27,619 nt of DNA, taken from a virus. Positions 8,102 through 26,613 of this stretch are shown piece after piece. Positions within the stretch are counted from its first letter, which is position 1; every line of letters begins with the position of its first letter. Made by a program: the position numbers and the translations under genes. The stretch spans positions 1 to 27,619 of IMG/VR virus record IMGVR_UViG_3300028654_000213; one strand, 5' to 3'. The notes below the pieces were generated by a model, which saw only the letters and a program-made list of their open reading frames with translations, made no database searches and was not told the origin of the DNA.

Positions 8102-8231
8102 GGGAGGAACAGACTCGTTGTTCACATTCATAACACGTACCAATAGAATCTACTTGGCAGCAGAGTCTAGACGCTGGGGACAAGTTCTTTGACGGCTGCT
8201 CTTTCCCGGATCTCTTCGAACGTTTGCTCAT
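7986..8231 (-). CDS. Small Cys-rich LCC-family protein E
   Basis: 81 aa from ATG 8231, overlapping the end of the nicotinamide phosphoribosyltransferase gene by 65 nt. A basic, Ser-rich start (SKRSKRSGKEQPSKN) precedes the core RLCCQVDSIGT, then C-Y-E-C-x4-C-S-S-H, and a further C-D-D-C pair follows. So there may be two metal sites. The stop TAA sits in a prfB-like context that could shift ribosomes into module D. Confidence 0.65.
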   Translation of the reverse strand: MSKRSKRSGKEQPSKNLSPASRLCCQVDSIGTCYECEQRVCSSHGAYVWRGNGFVQCDDCATRKELLQSFESPNEEPPQGL

Positions 8232-9567
8232 TAACTAGATCCCCATTATAAAATACTTCCTGGAGGACGTCATCCTGAGGCTCGACATCATTTTCGCCAA
8301 CCGTGGCAAACTGTCCATCCTTCTGGACAAGGCGGAGAATTCCTTTCTTGGAGTTCTTACCTGGATCAGTAACAGGGGACTTGAACACATCATATGCCTT
8401 ACTAGCAACAGTAACGCTAGAGCACTTGAAAGCAAACTTCTGAGTATCTCTGTCCAGCTTCTGGAGAAGACCTCCACCCATTCCAAATCCAACGTTGTCG
8501 GCAGAGAAGCCTGCATCCATCAGGGCCTGAAGAATTTCTCCAGTGCTATTAAAATCAATACCATCTCCCTGAATGATTCTTACATGAGGATCGAGAACAA
8601 GATAGCCCTTTGCATTCTTTGTAGCACCAAACTGCTTGGCAAGGATACGGGCGACCTTAACTACAACTTCAGCAGGGTTACCTGAGTCAGGACGAATAAC
8701 TAAGACTCCATCTCTATTGAGAATCTGCTCGCGGAGCTGATCTCCCCAAAGGTTTTCACAAGCATTGAAGATGTCGTATGAGTCACTAACAACAGCAACT
8801 AACCCCGTAGGATACTGCTCAAGCATGTTCTTATAAGCCCACACCTCTCTATCTTTACCCCAAGAGGTAATAGTAGAGTGCTCGGCAGCAGGAATAGAAA
8901 AGCCTGCCATAGGGCATCCGTAAGAATCTTTAGCGACAAGGATACCCTGAATGGTATCTGAGCCCTTAAAGTTTACAAGGTGTGCCGCTCCGCCGATTCC
9001 AGCGGACTCAACTGAAGAGACGCCGCGGAAGCCGAAGTCATGTAACTTAAAGTCTACTAGACTTGTATCACCAGTCTTCTCAAGGTAACCGAAGATTAGC
9101 TTCTTCATGTTCCTAGAAAGAGTGGCAACCGTAGTAGGATACCAGACTTGAACTAGTAGAGTTTCAACGTAGTTAGTCAGCCAGTAGCACTCTACATCTG
9201 TATTCTCTACAGTCAGTAGAACGTTATGAGTACCAACGGTAGTTCCTTCAGGTACAGCTTTAATCTGGAGCGGAAGTCTTCCGCCATGCTTCCGTAAGAT
9301 ATATTCCCAGCCTTCTCGATTGAAGTGCTCTTCAGAGCCGAAGTGAGCCTTGGCAAAGGCCGCAGCTTCCTCAATTTTCTCCTGAGTGACAACCTGTCCA
9401 GTCAGGTAGGTCTTGATGATATGCTGAAGACCGAAGAACGTTACTTCAGGGAAGAGTCCTCCACGGGACTCGAAGTAACTATAAACCTTCTGAGTATCTT
9501 CGGGATACTGCTTCCAGTGTGTCAACTTGTACGAGTCAGACAGCAAAAGAATATTGGGCTCTTTCAT
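8167..9567 (-). CDS. nadV: Nicotinamide phosphoribosyltransferase (NadV/NAMPT)
   Basis: 466 aa, normal length for NAMPT, from ATG 9567 with AAAGGAAC upstream. The enzyme makes NMN from nicotinamide and PRPP. Family signatures are present in order: FESRGG and FFGLQHIIK near the N-terminus; YWLTNYVETLLVQVWYPTTV; LHDFGFRGVSS; the active-site His region SIPAAEHSTITSWG; the phosphate/ribose-binding VIRPDSGNP; IIQGDGID; and GFGMGGGLLQK. No truncation is apparent. The NMN adenylyltransferase gene lies one small gene upstream, so the pair can rebuild NAD+ from nicotinamide in two steps, a route phages use against NAD-depleting defences. Confidence 0.95.
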   Translation of the reverse strand: MKEPNILLLSDSYKLTHWKQYPEDTQKVYSYFESRGGLFPEVTFFGLQHIIKTYLTGQVVTQEKIEEAAAFAKAHFGSEEHFNREGWEYILRKHGGRLPLQIKAVPEGTTVGTHNVLLTVENTDVECYWLTNYVETLLVQVWYPTTVATLSRNMKKLIFGYLEKTGDTSLVDFKLHDFGFRGVSSVESAGIGGAAHLVNFKGSDTIQGILVAKDSYGCPMAGFSIPAAEHSTITSWGKDREVWAYKNMLEQYPTGLVAVVSDSYDIFNACENLWGDQLREQILNRDGVLVIRPDSGNPAEVVVKVARILAKQFGATKNAKGYLVLDPHVRIIQGDGIDFNSTGEILQALMDAGFSADNVGFGMGGGLLQKLDRDTQKFAFKCSSVTVASKAYDVFKSPVTDPGKNSKKGILRLVQKDGQFATVGENDVEPQDDVLQEVFYNGDLVNEQTFEEIRERAAVKELVPSV

Positions 9568-9849: not shown

Positions 9850-10788
9850 CTATCTCCACTGAAGACGCTTTTGCAATATAGACACTAACTCCTTATGAGT
9901 AGGATGTACATGGGCAATCAAGTTAGCATCCAGTGTCTTCCACTCTACATCAACGATATCATCGCCCGCTACGGGAACCTGATTAGATCCTGTCACGTCA
10001 GCTAAGAACAACGTTGTAATGATTCTGTCTCTATCTTTGTACCGAAAGTCACTCTGACGAGTACTGGTTACGTACGTCAGCTTTGTAAGATCAAGTCCTG
10101 TTTCTTCCTTAGCTTCTCTAATGGCTGCAGCTTCAAAAGAAAGATCACTAGGATCTGCAAAGCCTCCTACCAATCTATCTTGGTCTCCCTTCCACTTGTG
10201 GACAACTAAGATTTCCCATCCATTGCCCGCATCTCTTACGATTCCGATATCAACTGTAGCAAAACAACGAGGCCATTGATTATAAGCTCCGTATATAACC
10301 CCTTTGCGAAAGTCCTCATTAGCTACAGGCATCTTAGATGCGGCTACCCGTAAAGCAGTTCCTTCTGCAGCGTCAACATCTGGAACAACTTTGGTTGGAA
10401 AAGATCCTTTGTAATAGGGGATGAAGCTATCTCTTCCACCATAGAGAATAACATCTCTTCCGGGAAAGTTATCTTTGATAACCTTATCTAAGTTAACACT
10501 CCAGACTTCATCACTTCCAGAGTCCATTATATTCGCTATCTTCATCCAGCCATTAGTATAAACCTTCGAGCTAATGAAGCTATCAAACAGAGACTTACGA
10601 GTTTGGAAGTCTAAAGGATCTTTAGCAGACCCTTTGGCTGTAGTACTACCTAAGACAATTAGAACATCTTTGTGGATGCTACAAACATGGTCGAGGAGAC
10701 CTAGATGTCCTTTGTGGAGAGAGGGAACCTGAAATCTACCTACTACGACTCCGATTGATCCAGATTCTAAGCTTTCGGAAGGTGTCAT
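9850..10788 (-). CDS. nadM: Bifunctional NMN adenylyltransferase / Nudix hydrolase
   Basis: 312 aa from ATG 10788; an upstream TTG at 10827 is an alternative. The N-terminal half is a NadM-type nucleotidyltransferase with VVGRFQVPSLHKGHLGLL (GRFQ-P-x-H-x-G-H motif). The C-terminal half is a Nudix domain, GGFADPSDLSFE followed by AAAIREAKEETGLD, where the REAKEETGL core is intact but the upstream Glu of the box appears shifted. The first domain makes NAD+ from NMN and ATP; the second may hydrolyse ADP-ribose. Together with nadV it forms a complete nicotinamide-to-NAD+ route. Confidence 0.92.
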   Translation of the reverse strand: MTPSESLESGSIGVVVGRFQVPSLHKGHLGLLDHVCSIHKDVLIVLGSTTAKGSAKDPLDFQTRKSLFDSFISSKVYTNGWMKIANIMDSGSDEVWSVNLDKVIKDNFPGRDVILYGGRDSFIPYYKGSFPTKVVPDVDAAEGTALRVAASKMPVANEDFRKGVIYGAYNQWPRCFATVDIGIVRDAGNGWEILVVHKWKGDQDRLVGGFADPSDLSFEAAAIREAKEETGLDLTKLTYVTSTRQSDFRYKDRDRIITTLFLADVTGSNQVPVAGDDIVDVEWKTLDANLIAHVHPTHKELVSILQKRLQWR

Positions 10789-10969
10789 ATAATATTCGTA
10801 CCCCTTGTACGGGAAGGTATATCGCAAATCGAATCACCATCGTTAAGCCGACGGTCACGCCAATAAGAACGGCAATTACTCCTAACAGGATTAGAAGCAA
10901 CCACATTAACATTGCATCGTTGATTGTAGGATCTTCCGTATGCAAGCTAGGGGGACGTATAAAACTCAT
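10736..10969 (-). CDS. Small membrane protein
   Basis: 77 aa, overlapping the start of the NadM-Nudix gene by 53 nt. Residues about 20-53 form a long hydrophobic span (MWLLLILLGVIAVLIGV, then VGLTMVIRFAIYL), one or two transmembrane helices. An Arg-rich tail (RKLRIWINRSRSR) is expected in the cytoplasm. No family recognised; a holin or small membrane effector is possible. Confidence 0.6.
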   Translation of the reverse strand: MSFIRPPSLHTEDPTINDAMLMWLLLILLGVIAVLIGVTVGLTMVIRFAIYLPVQGVRILYDTFRKLRIWINRSRSR

Positions 10970-13461: not shown

Positions 13462-14574
13462 TTACCTCTTTCTGAAGACCTGATAGATCGCAGGAAGCTG
13501 CGGATCTTTATTGTCGAACATCTGGAACATAAAGGGTTTATGTTCCCCCTTTACATTCGCCAACACGTACTGGGCGAAAGTCTTTCTATCAACCTTAGGA
13601 GCTTTAGCAAACAGTTCGTAGCAAGTGTTCCTGAACATGAGTGCATCTTTCTTATAGGTCGCGATAGTATTAACTACATCCTGACGGTACTCTTCAGGAA
13701 CAAGGAAGAGGTTCTCTTCTACCTGCTGCTCTCCTCCTGCAATTAATACATCAAGTAGATTCTTGTCGGATAGATTGCCTAAGAAGCGATGCACGCGTAA
13801 GTACTCAGCACTCTTCACCTTTACCATCAGGTCTTCGCCTTTGAAGCGAATTACGAACCCCTCTTCAAGGTAAGGCATAGTCTTAGCCTTATCTAAGATG
13901 TTCTGGATAGAAGAGAACTCGTAAGTCTTAAACGTATTAAGACCGTATTGCTTAGCGAACGCGTGAACTTCATCAGGCTGAAAGAGCTTCTCAGAAGTGT
14001 TCTCGCGAACACCAATTAGATACAGCCCCTCCGGGTACCCTTCCTTCTTTGCATAAGGAATAACGATCTGGTACTCTGTAGAGATGATCTCCCACATTAA
14101 CGTATACTTCCGTAGAAGAGCTTTATCTTTTACAGACTGAGGAAGACGGGGAGTAGCCCAAGCACCCTGTTCGGAATCGAAGTCACCTTTGGTACTCACA
14201 TAGAACTTATCTGTAACTTCGTCGTACAGAGATAGTCCCATAGAACCATCTAGCTTTTCACAAGCAACGAACCCCTTACGAGCCTCTAGTTCTTTTAAAG
14301 AAGGAGCTTCAGGCTCTCCTACGTTCCAGAACTTAGAGAAGCCCTGGGCAAGGATCTTCTTGTTCTTAAAATCAACAATGACTCCGCGGCAAGAGCGAGC
14401 AAAGCCAGTCCACTCACCTTTCCCGAATACCAAGTCGTCCCGATAATGAAGGACCCCGATATGAGGAAGCATCCGAGACATGCGAAGACGTACCAGATGG
14501 CGTTCGCAGTGTGCTAGCAGAGTCTGCTCGTCATAAAGACCATGCTCAATGAAGTACGAGTTTAGGTTTTGCAT
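13462..14574 (-). CDS. rnlA: T4 Rnl1-like RNA ligase
   Basis: 370 aa, close to the 374 of T4 RNA ligase 1. The nucleotidyltransferase motifs are in order: motif I CEKLDGS with Lys107 as the adenylylated residue; motif III FYVSTKGDF; IIIa LMWEII; IV EEGFVIRF; V LMVKVKS. An N-terminal SCRGVIVDF matches the segment before motif I in Rnl1-type enzymes. It seals 5'-phosphate to 3'-hydroxyl RNA ends, in T4 for repair of tRNA cut by anticodon nucleases. The end-healing partner is at 17958-18830. All key residues appear intact. Confidence 0.92.
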   Translation of the reverse strand: MQNLNSYFIEHGLYDEQTLLAHCERHLVRLRMSRMLPHIGVLHYRDDLVFGKGEWTGFARSCRGVIVDFKNKKILAQGFSKFWNVGEPEAPSLKELEARKGFVACEKLDGSMGLSLYDEVTDKFYVSTKGDFDSEQGAWATPRLPQSVKDKALLRKYTLMWEIISTEYQIVIPYAKKEGYPEGLYLIGVRENTSEKLFQPDEVHAFAKQYGLNTFKTYEFSSIQNILDKAKTMPYLEEGFVIRFKGEDLMVKVKSAEYLRVHRFLGNLSDKNLLDVLIAGGEQQVEENLFLVPEEYRQDVVNTIATYKKDALMFRNTCYELFAKAPKVDRKTFAQYVLANVKGEHKPFMFQMFDNKDPQLPAIYQVFRKR

Positions 14575-15556: not shown

Positions 15557-15694
15557 TCAGTGTTTGGACATCGCTGTCGCCCAGGAGAGCGACAACAGTC
15601 CGAGACCTACCGTGGCAACAAGTTCTTTACGTACTACCATTAAGAATGTGCAAGCCATTAGAAACAATAAAGTTCTTGCGTCCCACTTGTTCAT
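15557..15694 (-). CDS. Small hydrophobic protein
   Basis: 45 aa from ATG 15694, in an ATGA overlap with the superoxide dismutase stop and with GGAGAAGAACTT just upstream. Two hydrophobic stretches (LLFLMACTFLMVV and VATVGLGLLSLSWAT) around a K-E pair suggest a membrane hairpin. The 99 nt between it and the next gene (15458-15556) hold no other ORF that I can support. Confidence 0.55.
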   Translation of the reverse strand: MNKWDARTLLFLMACTFLMVVRKELVATVGLGLLSLSWATAMSKH

Positions 15695-16272
15695 AAGTTC
15701 TTCTCCACGAAGTTCCAGTTAATAACGTTCCAGGCATTTTCCAGATAAGCTTTCTTATCGTTCTTATGATCTAGGTAATAAGCGTGTTCCCATAGATCCA
15801 CAACAAGTAACGACTTAGCAGTTGTTCCTACAAAATTATCTGCGTCTGGAGTTGTAGCTACCGTTAGACCCAACTTAGATGCGTTGAGCCAAATCCAACC
15901 TGATCCGAAGTGAGCTAAGGCCTTTTCATTAAAGTGGGCCTTCATCTTATCTACATCACCGAAACTTCGCTGAATAAGACTTAAAGTTTTATTACCCGGA
16001 GTAGTCTCTACAGGGCTGAGACTGTTCCAGTAGAACTCATGATTCCATGCCTGAGCCGCCTGTTGGAAGAGAGGATCATACATATCCCTCTGAGTGGATT
16101 CGATTACCTGTTCGAGAGATAAGCCGTCGTACTTATCTGTACTTCCTACGAGCTCATTAACCTTATCGACATACCCTTTATAGTGTTTACCATAATGAGT
16201 CTCCATTGTAACTCTAGAGATGTTAGGTTCTAAAGCGTTAGGAGCAAACGGCAATGGCATCATCTTAAACAT
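15691..16272 (-). CDS. sodB: Superoxide dismutase, Fe/Mn family (Fe-type)
   Basis: 193 aa, full length, from ATG 16272 with GAGGG upstream. The four metal ligands are visible: His26 (THYGKHY), His78 (AWNHEFYW), Asp159 and His163 (VVDLWEHAYY). The context QAAQAWNHEFYW, with Gln at the active-site position, resembles iron enzymes such as E. coli SodB. It converts superoxide to oxygen and peroxide in the cytoplasm; no signal peptide is present. A phage-borne Fe-SOD is unusual and suggests protection of infected cells from oxidative stress. Confidence 0.95.
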   Translation of the reverse strand: MFKMMPLPFAPNALEPNISRVTMETHYGKHYKGYVDKVNELVGSTDKYDGLSLEQVIESTQRDMYDPLFQQAAQAWNHEFYWNSLSPVETTPGNKTLSLIQRSFGDVDKMKAHFNEKALAHFGSGWIWLNASKLGLTVATTPDADNFVGTTAKSLLVVDLWEHAYYLDHKNDKKAYLENAWNVINWNFVEKNL

Positions 16273-17957: not shown

Positions 17958-18830
17958 TTAGAAATCGCCCTCTGCACATTGCAGACAAACGATTCCCCTT
18001 GACCTCCACATATCCACAACCTGTTGTCTGTCATCGACGGCAAAGACAGGTTGGAACTGAGTAAGAATGTCGAAGTCTAAGAGAATCTCTTTGATGATAT
18101 TGTCTTGACGGTGATCTCCGGCACTTCTCATAAAGAGATGTCCGAAGTATAAGTTGTTGTCTTTAAGCCACTTCTCAGTATCTGCCCGTGACTCTTCTCC
18201 GCGACCGCTGCAGAAGATGATCTCATGAGATCCACTGAACTGTCTAACAAGCTCAGCGCACCATTCATTTACGCCGTCACGAGGAATACCTTTGAAGAAG
18301 GCCGGCCAGTTAGGCTTACGTCCTTCAACTCCTTTCTTAACGTAGTGGAGTCTGTGCTCGATGTTACAGAGCGTTCCATCAAGATCGCAAATGATTGCCT
18401 TAGGCTTGTCTTCTCCAACTCCTCCGCCGTAGTCAACGAACTCGATGGAGTCCGCTTCATCCGGAGTAGGCTTGTCATACTTAGCGAAGAAAAGGTTAAT
18501 AGCGCTACGAGCCGAAGCCTCGCTATTAATAGTCTCATGATCCTTACGGGCCATGACTCTATCGAAACAAACCTTGCGGGGAACCCTGAAGACGCGGATA
18601 GTAACTCTATACCCGATCGCTTTAGCGGGAGTAATGTATCTAGCCCGCTGAACCTTATCGAAGCCCATACGGTCGACGATAACATCCTCTCCACGGTTGA
18701 TAGCTTCGTTAAAGAGACGAAGATGATCTTTACCCTGAGCGTCCTGATTGATATAAGTACCAGTCAGAGCCTTAGCATGGGTAGACTTACCTGAGCCAGG
18801 AGGTCCAACTAAGACAACGAGATTATGCAT
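17958..18830 (-). CDS. pseT: Polynucleotide 5'-kinase / 3'-phosphatase (T4 Pnkp-like)
   Basis: 290 aa (T4 Pnkp is 301), from ATG 18830 with AGAGGA upstream. Kinase domain: P-loop GPPGSGKST at 9-17 and VIVDRMGFDKVQRARY near 50-65. Phosphatase domain: the HAD motif ICDLDGTL at 147-154, SGRGEESRADTEKW and the late Asp pair in VFAVDDR. It phosphorylates 5'-OH and removes 3' or cyclic phosphates from RNA ends, making ends for the ligase at 13462-14574. In T4 these two enzymes repair tRNA cleaved by host anticodon nucleases. Domain order matches T4. Confidence 0.93.
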   Translation of the reverse strand: MHNLVVLVGPPGSGKSTHAKALTGTYINQDAQGKDHLRLFNEAINRGEDVIVDRMGFDKVQRARYITPAKAIGYRVTIRVFRVPRKVCFDRVMARKDHETINSEASARSAINLFFAKYDKPTPDEADSIEFVDYGGGVGEDKPKAIICDLDGTLCNIEHRLHYVKKGVEGRKPNWPAFFKGIPRDGVNEWCAELVRQFSGSHEIIFCSGRGEESRADTEKWLKDNNLYFGHLFMRSAGDHRQDNIIKEILLDFDILTQFQPVFAVDDRQQVVDMWRSRGIVCLQCAEGDF

Positions 18831-21027: not shown

Positions 21028-21098
21028 TGCCCCTATACAGATTCAAACTGTAATAAGGCGGGTTAGAGCCGCCTGCTTTATCGTTAAGCTATAGGGGC
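21028..21098 (-). tRNA. tRNA-Arg (TCT), unusual elbow
   Basis: 71 nt, no encoded CCA. Acceptor GCCCCTA/TAGGGGC and anticodon stem GGCGG/CCGCC are perfect; loop CTCTAAC gives TCT. The D-loop lacks the usual GG (it reads TTAACGATAA) and the T-loop is TTTGAAT, lacking the conserved C56, so the D-loop/T-loop contact is altered. Confidence 0.88.
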
Positions 21099-23338: not shown

Positions 23339-23515
23339 TTAAATACCCTTTTCCCGAACAAAGTATCCTGCAGTTCTCTTCTTGTTGAGACGCCAAGGCT
23401 TCCAGGCATTAACTTTTATATTCCACGCTACCCGTGTCTTGCAATATCTACATTGAGCCCAAGAGATATTAAAATAAGCTACATGGCCTCTTACTACACA
23501 TACAAGGCTCTTCAC
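23339..23515 (-). CDS. Small CxxC protein, SLxCVxxGH type (copy 2)
   Basis: 58 aa from GTG 23515, whose TG forms part of the TGA stop of the ferritin-like gene. Read as MKSLVCVVRGHVAYF with WAQCRYCKTRVAWNIK, it parallels the protein at 21936-22154 over about 40 residues, then diverges with a basic tail (RLNKKRTAGYFVREKG). A single zinc site from C, H and C-x2-C is plausible. Confidence 0.55.
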   Translation of the reverse strand: MKSLVCVVRGHVAYFNISWAQCRYCKTRVAWNIKVNAWKPWRLNKKRTAGYFVREKGI

Positions 23516-24075
23516 ATCGATAATCCGATAGCAGCTAATCCCTTAACATGATTAACGATAGCCTTCTTCTTGGAAGTCTTAGACGATAGAGCTCTAAAGG
23601 CCCTCTCGTGAAAGAGCTCGTCCTTTAAAATCTTCTTGAACGTATTACGAATGTCCTCAGGAGCATTCTTATCTTCGACGATCGTCTTGATACGTTCAAG
23701 TCGCATAGACTCAGCAGCCCATGCAACGCCGCACATGTCATCGAAAGATTTAATACCCTGAAGCGTGTGCTTCCAGTAACGATCCTCGTGCTTCAAATCG
23801 GGAACAGCGAATCGAGTATATAAAAGATCCTCAATCCAATCGGCATGCTTACCTTCTTGTCCCGCAATCTTCTCGACAACCTTACGAAACTTAGGCTGAG
23901 GATCAAAATGATCCAGATAGATCTTTAAGCGACTCACGGCACGAGCTTCACCGATATATTGCTTCTGGAGCCAGGTAGTAATCTTAGCATCAGATTTCTT
24001 TGTCTTATCCCACCAAGCCTTCGATTGTTCCTTAAGGGTTCCACATTGGGTCGAAGTCGAGATCGATGTCGTCAT
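23512..24075 (-). CDS. Ferritin-like diiron protein
   Basis: 187 aa from ATG 24075, with AGGAG seven bases upstream (an earlier in-frame ATG at 24150 has none). Four-helix pattern with diiron ligands: E43 (YIGEARAVSRL), E74-x2-H77 (GQEGKHADWIED), E122 (AWAAESMRLERIK) and E153-x2-H156 (KDELFHERAF). This is the E/ExxH duplicated arrangement of rubrerythrin- or ferritin-like proteins. Likely roles are iron storage, peroxide removal or an oxygenase. With SOD in the same window it suggests oxidative-stress handling. Confidence 0.82.
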   Translation of the reverse strand: MTTSISTSTQCGTLKEQSKAWWDKTKKSDAKITTWLQKQYIGEARAVSRLKIYLDHFDPQPKFRKVVEKIAGQEGKHADWIEDLLYTRFAVPDLKHEDRYWKHTLQGIKSFDDMCGVAWAAESMRLERIKTIVEDKNAPEDIRNTFKKILKDELFHERAFRALSSKTSKKKAIVNHVKGLAAIGLSM

Positions 24076-24403
24076 ATATGTTCTCCTGCCTATCAAACTT
24101 TCTATCGTTGTGAATAGACTGTTTACGTTCATTACAAACGTCACAGTCACCTACTTTCTTAAGTGTTCCATTACCTTGTTTAAGGCGATCGGCGTAACAC
24201 TTAGCAGCGTCCTTCAACTGCTTCTTAGTAAATCTTTTACGACACATATCCAAGATAAAATGCTTCCTTGGAGACCAAGCCTTAGCACACTCCTGACACA
24301 TACGTTCGTGACAGAATGTACACTCCGCTCCTGTGTTGAGAGTGCAACAAAGGAAAGGACCCTTAGCTTCAAAGGGGTCTTGGATTACTTTAATTTTACT
24401 CAT
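24032..24403 (-). CDS. Cys-rich LCC-family protein Q
   Basis: 123 aa from ATG 24403, in an ATGA overlap. Its core is further in than usual: PFLCCTLNTGAE at residues 17-28, then C-T-F-C-x4-C-Q-E-C. A second pair, DCDVCNE, lies near residue 90, and the end is acidic (YDDIDLDFD). It overlaps the ferritin-like gene by 44 nt. Confidence 0.7.
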   Translation of the reverse strand: MSKIKVIQDPFEAKGPFLCCTLNTGAECTFCHERMCQECAKAWSPRKHFILDMCRKRFTKKQLKDAAKCYADRLKQGNGTLKKVGDCDVCNERKQSIHNDRKFDRQENIYDDIDLDFDPMWNP

Positions 24404-24838: not shown

Positions 24839-25240
24839 CTACTCTACGGGAGAAGCGGGACAACCTGGTAGCTCATTAATAGGAATCTTGAGCTGCATAC
24901 ATATCGTACGAAGGATGTCATGCATCTTCTTTCGGCCCGTAGGGTTGGCACTATGTAAGGTCACCTTCTGAATACAAGGACTAGGAGGGTTGTTACATAG
25001 GTAGGTCTGTATATACCAGGCAATAGGTTCATACGTTTCAAGACTTGTATGACCCCCGGTCCATAAACCATTCTCGCCCATGATGCTGTTACACTGTATA
25101 TCATGATCGATAGACACGTGCGTAACATCTTGCGTAGCGAGTAGACGTATGGCCTCTGTGACCGTTCTGGCTGTATGCCAATCGGTCTCACCGGGATATA
25201 TGTCTTCAGGTACTCTTAGGTCGTCTACGAACAGCTTCAT
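24839..25240 (-). CDS. Cyclic-phosphate-processing receiver-domain (cREC) protein
   Basis: 133 aa. MKLFVDDLRVPEDI gives the N-terminal D-D of a receiver fold; ARTVTEAIRLLATQ, VSIDHDIQCN and the late LHSANPTGRKKM match the family of cREC proteins thought to process cyclic phosphates on RNA or nucleotides. The N-terminal Asp pair, the D-H-D and the H-S-A-N are the likely active residues. With RNA ligase, kinase-phosphatase and macro protein in the window it could help RNA end repair. It ends 5 nt before tRNA-Gln. Confidence 0.75.
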   Translation of the reverse strand: MKLFVDDLRVPEDIYPGETDWHTARTVTEAIRLLATQDVTHVSIDHDIQCNSIMGENGLWTGGHTSLETYEPIAWYIQTYLCNNPPSPCIQKVTLHSANPTGRKKMHDILRTICMQLKIPINELPGCPASPVE

Positions 25241-25457
25241 GATGCTTCCCCTTTACTAGGACGTGTGTTCCAGATTTGTCTCTATAGCTTGTTACATCGT
25301 ACATACTTTTTAGTGCTGCAATACCGCATGATGGAGATGACGTGTTGTGCTGTTGGAAAGCACTTACATTAGACGGAATACACTTGGTACAAATAGCCCA
25401 TTCACACTCTGAACATCTTGCCCACGTACTTAAGACGCAGCAGAGGTTGTTAGTCAT
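25206..25457 (-). CDS. Small Cys-rich LCC-family protein R
   Basis: 83 aa from ATG 25457, overlapping the macro gene stop by ATGA. MTNNLCCVLSTWAR is followed by C-S-E-C-x4-C-T-K-C. The C-terminus is basic (KGKHHEAVRRRPKST) and runs 35 nt into the cREC gene in another frame. Possible nucleic-acid binding. Confidence 0.7.
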   Translation of the reverse strand: MTNNLCCVLSTWARCSECEWAICTKCIPSNVSAFQQHNTSSPSCGIAALKSMYDVTSYRDKSGTHVLVKGKHHEAVRRRPKST

Positions 25458-25906
25458 GGCTTATAGATTATAACTTTATAAGGCACCTTAGAAAAAGTTC
25501 CATCTATAATAGGCTTAACTATATTCCAATCACCGTTCGCTAAGCCACAACCTATTTTAAAAGGAATACCCACAACAGGTTTCTTATGAGTCGTAGGAAT
25601 CCACTCTCTAAGATTCTCTAGACCTGATAGCATTGCCACGTAGTCGGTATGTCTATCTGCCCCACCCATACCGTTTTGTGAATACAGATTAACGATCGTA
25701 ATACCTTTAGACTTAGCAAAGGTAAAGGTACCTAACCTTTTCTTATCCCCGAGGATGGTAAGCTTGTCCGCTTCAAAGGCTTCAGGGAATCTTTTCTTTA
25801 TCTCGGCAGCAATACCTGATCCAAAGGTATGATAAAGATTAGCCTGATGAATGATGTGAGTTACTTCTTTGGCATCGAAGAGGCTTCCATCTTTATTGGT
25901 AACCAT
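25454..25906 (-). CDS. Macro-domain protein (ADP-ribose binding/processing)
   Basis: 150 aa from ATG 25906, with GGGG eight bases upstream; an in-frame start at 25963 lies inside gene S. Macro features: IIHQANLYHTFGSGIAAEI (the N-x5-G-S-G-I-A ligand loop), LGTFTFA, TIVNLYSQNG and VGIPFKIGCGLANGDW (second glycine-rich loop). This is most like Poa1p-type macro proteins that remove phosphate from ADP-ribose 1''-phosphate, a tRNA-splicing by-product. In this phage it may recycle ADP-ribose or reverse ADP-ribosylation. Confidence 0.85.
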   Translation of the reverse strand: MVTNKDGSLFDAKEVTHIIHQANLYHTFGSGIAAEIKKRFPEAFEADKLTILGDKKRLGTFTFAKSKGITIVNLYSQNGMGGADRHTDYVAMLSGLENLREWIPTTHKKPVVGIPFKIGCGLANGDWNIVKPIIDGTFSKVPYKVIIYKP

Positions 25907-26117
25907 TTGTTGTACCCCATCTATGTAACGCGGGACAAGAAGGACATTTAAGTACTCTACCAAATTCAGTTAGAGGTCTAGCGTCTCTACCTGAAACCCA
26001 ATCGGTCGAGTAGTCAGTCTTTTCTAAGCAAGGGTAGCAGATGACCGTCTCGCTATTAGGACATGAAGCGTATGGTGTTAGGAGACAACAAAGGCTTGTT
26101 TTCCATTTTGTCTTCAT
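25893..26117 (-). CDS. Small Cys-rich LCC-family protein S (one ligand changed)
   Basis: 74 aa from ATG 26117, in a TAATG overlap with T. TSLCCLLTPYAS is followed by C-P-N-S-x4-C-Y-P-C: the second Cys of the first pair is Ser, unlike other members. Later KCPSCP adds two Cys that could compensate. Confidence 0.68.
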   Translation of the reverse strand: MKTKWKTSLCCLLTPYASCPNSETVICYPCLEKTDYSTDWVSGRDARPLTEFGRVLKCPSCPALHRWGTTNGYQ

Positions 26118-26341
26118 TAAAAGACTACCTCACACATTATATGGACGCCCGATCTATTAGGATCCACTACGCTCCCCACGCTCTTACGGGCTAGTTTTGC
26201 TACATAACAAGTAGGAGATACTTCGTTATGAAAGTCCCACGGAGCTTTATCGGGAGGAAGATCGCTGCAGAAGTAGCATGTCTTCCATTCACATCCATCG
26301 CAAACTAACCATGTATTGAGTTCACAACAGAGTTTATTCAT
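26117..26341 (-). CDS. Small Cys-rich LCC-family protein T, directly after a tRNA
   Basis: 74 aa from ATG 26341. TTTATT is all that separates it from the CCA of the CAT tRNA; no ribosome site. MNKLCCELNTWLV is followed by C-D-G-C-x4-C-Y-F-C. The tail has two more Cys (TCYVA, MCEVV). Confidence 0.75.
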   Translation of the reverse strand: MNKLCCELNTWLVCDGCEWKTCYFCSDLPPDKAPWDFHNEVSPTCYVAKLARKSVGSVVDPNRSGVHIMCEVVF

Positions 26342-26347
26342 AATAAA

Positions 26348-26437
26348 TGGTTGCGGAGACCGGAATCGAACCGGCATAGCCTTTCGGCTTGGAGCTTATG
26401 AGACTCCCGTGGCAACACCACCATCCACCTCTCCGCT
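26348..26437 (-). tRNA. tRNA with CAT anticodon and a long variable arm
   Basis: 90 nt with encoded CCA, A discriminator. The anticodon stem GGAGT/GCTCC encloses CTCATAA (CAT). The variable arm AGCC-GAAA-GGCT is a 4-bp hairpin, as in class II (Leu/Ser/Tyr) tRNAs, not Met. D-stem GTGG/CCAC; T-loop TTCGATT. If A14 is aligned as usual, position 1-72 is A-A and unpaired, and the acceptor is six pairs; alternatively it starts one base later. Amino-acid identity is uncertain. Confidence 0.85.
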
Positions 26438-26445
26438 ATAAATCT

Positions 26446-26517
26446 TGGGCCGAGTGGGACTTGAACCCACAACCCTGTCCTTAAAAGGGACCTGCTCTTC
26501 CTTGGAGCTACCGGCCC
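26446..26517 (-). tRNA. tRNA-Lys (TTT)
   Basis: 72 nt, no encoded CCA. Acceptor GGGCCGG/TCGGCCC with one G-T. Loop CTTTTAA gives TTT; the outermost anticodon-stem pair is G-A. T-loop TTCAAGT. It is 8 nt upstream of the CAT tRNA. Confidence 0.93.
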
Positions 26518-26538
26518 GATATACTATTTATACACAAA

Positions 26539-26613
26539 TGGCTGGGGAGGAAGGGATCGAACCTCCGACGTCCGGTTTCAGAGACCGGCATTCTACCGCT
26601 GAATTACTCCCCA
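26539..26613 (-). tRNA. tRNA-Gln (CTG)
   Basis: 75 nt with encoded CCA and G discriminator. Acceptor TGGGGAG/CTCCCCA; anticodon stem CCGGT/ACCGG around CTCTGAA gives CTG. T-loop TTCGATC. A second Gln isoacceptor besides TTG. Confidence 0.94.

Follow-up and report, generated by a model that had tools for sequence, protein, structure and literature searches.

A phage-encoded tRNA with a CAU anticodon and a class II variable arm is probably of the initiator type

The window analysed here is a stretch of viral DNA of 27,619 nucleotides. On its minus strand, it carries a gene for an 87-nt tRNA with a CAU anticodon, followed by a templated CCA (Table 1). ARAGORN reports this gene as tRNA-Met(cat) at 26348-26435, also on the minus strand. 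A local search with Rfam RF00005 aligns positions 26437-26351 with 32.1 bits (gathering score 29), the lowest Rfam score among the 13 tRNAs of the window array; the whole-window Rfam scan missed the CAU tRNA at 26348-26437. Written by structural element, the 5' part of the gene reads AGCGGAG AG GTGG ATGGTGGTGTTG CCAC G GGAGT CTCATAA GCTCC, and the 3' part continues with AAGCCGAAAGGCTAT GCCGG TTCGATT CCGGT CTCCGCA A CCA. In the predicted fold (energy z = -2.59), acceptor positions 2-7 are paired, and the anticodon arm, the T arm and a variable arm with a 4-bp stem are formed. The D region adopts an alternative pairing register; in the nearest relative, L236, the D stem forms as expected. The T stem includes G49.U65, and position 8 is A, not the usual U. 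Taking as class II any variable arm of at least 10 nt with a stem, the present one, laid out as A-AGCC-GAAA-GGCU-AU, belongs to this class with its 15 nt and 4-bp stem. Such an extra stem-loop is normal only on leucine, serine and tyrosine tRNAs. The original prediction had described a CAU anticodon, a 4-bp variable hairpin, A73 and possibly an unpaired A1-A72, an anatomy that the sequence, the Rfam alignment and the fold bear out.

The ORF that follows the CAU tRNA gene belongs to a family of small Cys-rich ORFs (LCCxLxPxxxCxxCxxxxCxxC) with 15-16 copies between window positions 2890 and 26341, six of which start 6-9 nt past a tRNA 3' end, like tRNA+ORF cassettes. The ORFs of this kind that were tested gave no Pfam or PHROG match. 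Roughly 40-45 copies are found (L602/L603) in G001, the 54-kb phage record that holds L236. Elsewhere, the window encodes NAMPT (8167-9567) and an adjoining nucleotidyltransferase-Nudix protein (9850-10827), possibly a NAD+ rebuilding pair, as well as a Fe/Mn superoxide dismutase (15691-16272), a rubrerythrin-like protein (23512-24150) and a CUA-anticodon tRNA (21028-21098). TAG ends 5 of the 21 ORFs checked, so there is no global TAG recoding in the window.

Table 1. Coordinates of the CAU tRNA gene, its structural elements and other features of the window
Feature	Position	Strand	Basis
tRNA gene, anticodon CAU, class II, initiator-like	26348..26437	-	ARAGORN, Rfam, predicted fold
Mature tRNA body and encoded CCA	26437-26351 and 26350-26348	-	
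Acceptor 5' strand AGCGGAG (positions 1-7), A1 unpaired	26431..26437	-	Rfam alignment flags 1:72 as non-standard; fold
Acceptor 3' strand CTCCGCA (66-72): G2-C71, C3-G70, G4-C69, A72 open	26352..26358	-	sequence
Discriminator A73	26351..26351	-	sequence
A8, G9 and D arm (stem GTGG/CCAC, 12-nt loop)	26409..26430	-	sequence
Anticodon arm GGAGT-CTCATAA-GCTCC, 31:39 = U.G	26391..26407	-	exact 17-mer shared mostly with initiator-like tRNAs
Anticodon CAU	26398..26400	-	ARAGORN
Class II variable arm AAGCCGAAAGGCTAT, 4-bp stem, GAAA loop	26376..26390	-	predicted fold
T arm GCCGG-TTCGATT-CCGGT	26359..26375	-	sequence, Rfam, fold
tRNA-Lys(UUU), neighbour in same array	26446..26517	-	ARAGORN, Rfam
tRNA-Gln(CUG), neighbour in same array	26542..26613	-	ARAGORN, Rfam
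Small Cys-rich ORF (MNKLCC...), starts 9 nt after N73 of the CAU tRNA	26117..26341	-	
Polynucleotide kinase/phosphatase (Pnkp-like)	17958..18830	-	HAD_PNKP 5.9e-36; phrog_505 1.8e-50
T4 Rnl1-type RNA ligase	13462..14574	-	PF09511 1.4e-22; phrog_562
Cyclic-phosphate-processing receiver (cREC) domain	24839..25240	-	PF20274 3.5e-17
Macro-like phosphatase, RNA-repair set	25454-25963		

The formylase signature comprises an unpaired 1-72, A73, G2-C71, C3-G70 and G4-C69, and the elements by which MetRS recognizes the E. coli initiator are G2-C71, C3-G70, C32, U33, CAU and A37 (review, PMC9976931). In the window tRNA, 1:72 is unpaired (A1xA72), the formylase minor determinants G2-C71, C3-G70, G4-C69 and A73 are all present, and CAU is accompanied by C32, U33 and A37. 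All these features are shared with bacterial tRNA-fMet of the E. coli type. The open pair is, however, A-A instead of C-A. Other features of the E. coli type have no counterpart: the three G-C pairs at 29-31:39-41 are replaced by A-U, G-C and U.G, the initiator hallmark R11:Y24 by U11:A24, and both U8 and the short variable loop are missing.

At least 119 other viral stretches contain an identical copy of the 17-nt anticodon arm, GGAGTCTCATAAGCTCC, mostly within initiator-like tRNAs. Among the matches listed, 59 distinct tRNAs with this arm were parsed, 52 of which have G2-C71 and C3-G70; in 46, these pairs are combined with an open 1:72. Most are class I tRNAs with CGCGGG..CCCGCA ends. The tRNA-fMet of phage T5 (tRNAfM, AY692264), a phage-encoded initiator type, shares with the window tRNA an open 1:72 (U1xU72), G2-C71, C3-G70, the loop CUCAUAA and the pairs A29-U41, G30-C40 and U31.G39. 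It differs by a class I variable loop (6 nt), U8 and U73, where the window tRNA has a 15-nt arm, A8, A73 and A1xA72. In a set of class I phage initiator-like tRNAs, for the most part retrieved with this anticodon arm, 42 of 59 show the same A-U, G-C and U.G pairs at 29-31:39-41. As these pairs are also those of T5 tRNAfM, the lack of the three G-C pairs is usual among these phage initiator-like tRNAs. When the anticodon and the variable arm are left out, the phage initiator-like profile scores 71.3 bits and Leu comes next with 43.4, the first value being inflated by the many class I training members fetched by the window tRNA's own anticodon arm. The acceptor-only score, free of this bias, is 21.4 for the phage initiator-like profile versus 10.5. 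A classifier trained on 7 cellular initiators only gave a tie, with 43.4 for Leu and 43.2 for initiator, and failed on the T5 tRNA-fMet control, so that it was uninformative.

Class II CAU tRNAs were searched for with a pattern allowing a gap of 19-29 nt between the anticodon loop and the T arm, which matches at least 119 viral stretches, some by chance. The parsed tRNAs fall into two acceptor groups. Group A consists of 90 distinct tRNAs with G2-C71 and C3-G70. A73 is present in 86 of them, and 1:72 is open or weak (UU 38, UA 17, CA 9, AA 8, AU 5, CU 5, others), no G-C being found at this position in any of the 90. Group B is a distinct set of 37 tRNAs with a closed 1:72 pair, mostly G-C; L025, L091, L039 and L002, for instance, have paired GGGCC.. 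acceptors, often with A8. As part of group A was fetched by a pattern that fixes the acceptor, the fair test is the acceptor-unselected set. There, G2-C71 and C3-G70 accompany all 25 genuine open 1:72 positions (a 26th open parse, which is spurious, was left out) versus 6 of 37 paired ones; in a stricter subset, the figures are 15/15 versus 6/37 (Fisher p = 1e-8). A11:U24 occurs in 56 of 90 class II relatives, and G39 in 27 of 76. Chance origin is excluded, because the exact anticodon arm and the class II CAU type are each found in at least 119 viral stretches. Moreover, many phage contigs show this unusual union of an initiator-type tRNA with an extra stem-loop, which argues for a real variant and not a one-off mutant or a miscoding tRNA. 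Judging from the sequences compared, the class II CAU tRNA is thus a recurrent type across phage contigs. The original prediction had regarded the presence of such an arm on ordinary Met or Ile2 tRNAs of many phages as a sign against an exceptional tRNA. This is largely what is seen, such an arm being present on Met-type tRNAs in many phages, but its carriers are initiator-like and not ordinary elongator Met or Ile2.

In four records (G003, G007, G008 and G014), a class I initiator-like tRNA coexists with one of class II, which is thus not always the sole initiator and can be an additional one; in G006, an Ile2-like CAU tRNA stands beside the class II CAU tRNA. A population sample of 57 loci, fetched without regard to tRNAs, gave two parsed CAU tRNAs, both class I. 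In BLAST searches with the window tRNA and three relatives, the matches inspected in named phages were partial or class I tRNAs, and none of them revealed a named isolate with a class II CAU tRNA. Cellular genomes gave 86 matches, mostly 3' tRNA-fMet fragments in Verrucomicrobiota, with few true class II tRNAs, several of them beside other tRNAs. L374-L459 (e.g., L441, L455, L409) contain repeated tRNA-fMet 3' halves that carry a GC hairpin insertion, CTCATAATCCCGC..GCGGGATC..ACCA, beside other sequence. These halves, found mainly in Verrucomicrobiota, are perhaps integration sites. On a Bradyrhizobium contig (L395), 22 tRNAs lie within 8 kb. Lys, Asn and CAU tRNAs with long arms are among them, and the CAU tRNA is almost identical to viral tRNAs such as L349 and L344.

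It is unlikely that the window tRNA serves elongation, either as a tRNA-Met for internal AUG codons or, with lysidine at C34, as a tRNA-Ile2 for AUA. The missing three G-C pairs and R11:Y24 do make it less initiator-like, and Ile2-like CAU tRNAs are frequent in phages. However, an open 1:72 points to formylation, and in this data set the acceptors of the phage Ile2-like and elongator-like CAU tRNAs are paired, being of the GGGCC.. or GGTAATG type. In addition, the 476-kb phage record G004 contains both an Ile2-like and an elongator-Met-like CAU tRNA, both class I, beside one class II initiator-like tRNA.

A8, the weak Rfam score and the unusual D arm could suggest a decaying or non-functional gene, or a decoy without a role in translation. 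This seems quite improbable in view of the stable predicted fold and the encoded CCA, though a decoy function is conceivable. Comparison with L236 also argues against decay. By inspection, pairs 4:69 and 6:67 of the acceptor and 50:64 and 52:62 of the T stem are changed on both sides, in a compensatory manner, and no difference is seen in A1xA72, in the D stem or in the anticodon arm; as L236 was fetched by its anticodon arm, the other stems alone count as evidence. L236 has a shorter variable arm with the same loop. In G001, a distant relative, the class II CAU tRNA is the sole tRNA reported by ARAGORN, and the AAA and VWA proteins are 41-43% identical to those of the window. No relatives were found when the flanking 146-aa ORF and the RNA ligase were used as queries.

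Least probable, and very unlikely in our opinion, is a missense tRNA whose long arm would recruit LeuRS and deliver leucine to AUG codons, in the manner of nematode nev-tRNAs. LeuRS does not need the anticodon, A73 is compatible with Leu, and Leu is the second-best profile of the window tRNA. The geometry of the arm, with one unpaired nucleotide at its 5' side and two at its 3' side, is like that of bacterial tRNA-Leu. The nev-tRNAs also have a class II arm on anticodons of class I isotypes (Gly, Ile), and nev-tRNA-Gly and nev-tRNA-Ile take only Leu in vitro (PMC4300185). They differ, however, from the window tRNA, which has an initiator-type acceptor and is carried by a phage, and no mistranslation by nev-tRNAs was detectable in vivo (PMC4300185). 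A tRNA-Leu would combine A73 with a closed 1:72, and the Leu-type tRNAs of these phages almost always pair 1:72; the window tRNA has A73 but an open A1xA72. The absence of U8 is also against a LeuRS reading. In NAMPT, 3 of 5 internal AUG sites are mainly Met in homologues and none is mainly Leu; thus, this protein, the one tested, gives no sign of AUG reassignment.

Long arms on other isotypes bear on the same question. In the same phage loci, they are found with Asn, Lys, Thr, Pro, Cys, Glu, Gln, Ile, Trp, Gly and His anticodons. Counts for tRNAs with an encoded CCA, in loci that are not a random sample, show that the elements of the isotype are mostly kept: for Asn, G73 in 13/13 and U1-A72 in 12/13; for Pro, C1-G72 in 6/7; for Trp, G73 in 3/3; for Cys, U73 in 3/4. 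As most long-armed tRNAs retain the discriminator and the first pair typical of their isotype, the arm does not mark a switch to Leu or Ser. A very long variable arm is also seen in phage tRNA-Ile(UAU) (e.g., L018:7347-7440, L021:2321-2415, L126:12174-12265), a set of 32 distinct sequences, most of those inspected having an AGAT motif in the arm. As for serine, SerRS recognition uses G73 (PMC7609411), and the window tRNA has A73. Mischarging by LeuRS or SerRS, conceivable in the original prediction, is therefore disfavoured by A73 in the case of SerRS, by the Met/initiator elements of the acceptor, CAU and C32/U33/A37 (PMC9976931), and by the constancy of isotype elements in long-armed phage tRNAs. 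Its other suggestion, a special role, is supported, the evidence pointing to initiation.

Other accounts were rejected. An 8/4 architecture, as in allo-tRNAs, could pair A8 with U65, but position 65 is C in L236 and the 7/5 form fits. Allo-tRNAs (8/4, 9/3) are also non-canonical and come from genome mining; they have changed acceptor and T-arm lengths, and the available part of their description contains no CAU case (PMC7609411). An intron is not called for either: the additional nucleotides fold into a hairpin of the variable region, and no splice-like structure has to be assumed. Derivation by anticodon mutation from the tRNA-Leu or tRNA-Ser of the same phage is at odds with the differing acceptors and D arms.

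Taken from its sequence features, the window gene probably encodes a phage initiator-type, tRNA-fMet-like tRNA that has gained a class II variable arm. The host MetRS would charge it through CAU, A73 and the acceptor, and the host Met-tRNA formyltransferase would formylate it through the open 1:72 and G2-C71/C3-G70/G4-C69. At the start codons of the phage, IF2 would then bring it into the P site of the ribosome, so that it would supplement or replace the host initiator. The arm would be a decoration that leaves identity unchanged.

What the arm brings to the phage may be related to host tRNA nucleases. The RNA-repair genes of the window (Rnl1-type ligase, Pnkp-like enzyme, cREC domain and macro-like phosphatase; Table 1) suggest that the phage meets host defences that cut RNA. 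The site at which enteric VapC reportedly cleaves tRNA-fMet lies between A38 and C39 (PMC4105405), one VapC cuts a tRNA in its variable loop (PMC13273310), and evasion of anticodon nucleases has been put forward as a role of phage tRNAs (PMC10264068). Evasion of tRNA nucleases via the arm is plausible, and these analogies weakly suggest that its most likely benefit would be protection from host enzymes acting on tRNA-fMet by cleavage or modification. Base 39 of the window tRNA is G, not C, and G39 could act like the arm in this respect. More tentatively, and with some doubt, it can be proposed that phages evolved a distinct class II initiator as one instance of a broader tendency to equip class I isotypes (Asn, Lys, Thr, Pro, Cys, Glu, Gln and others) with long variable arms. 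Such tRNAs would escape cleavage or modification by host enzymes and would remain usable in translation.

As far as we know, all cellular organisms have initiator tRNAs of class I. Phage initiator tRNAs (T5) and V-arm tRNAs with class I anticodons (nematodes) are already known. A full-text search of the openly licensed literature gave no class II initiator tRNA and no phage class II CAU tRNA; a class II initiator-type tRNA is apparently an undescribed variant. Annotation pipelines may label such tRNAs as Met, Leu or pseudo, their true nature being unremarked. Class II initiator-like tRNAs offer a cheap and concrete test case for the question of whether the oddities of phage tRNAs evade host tRNA nucleases. 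If the class II tRNAs of phages do initiate, the variable region would be free to change in an initiator, and phages would have used this freedom repeatedly.
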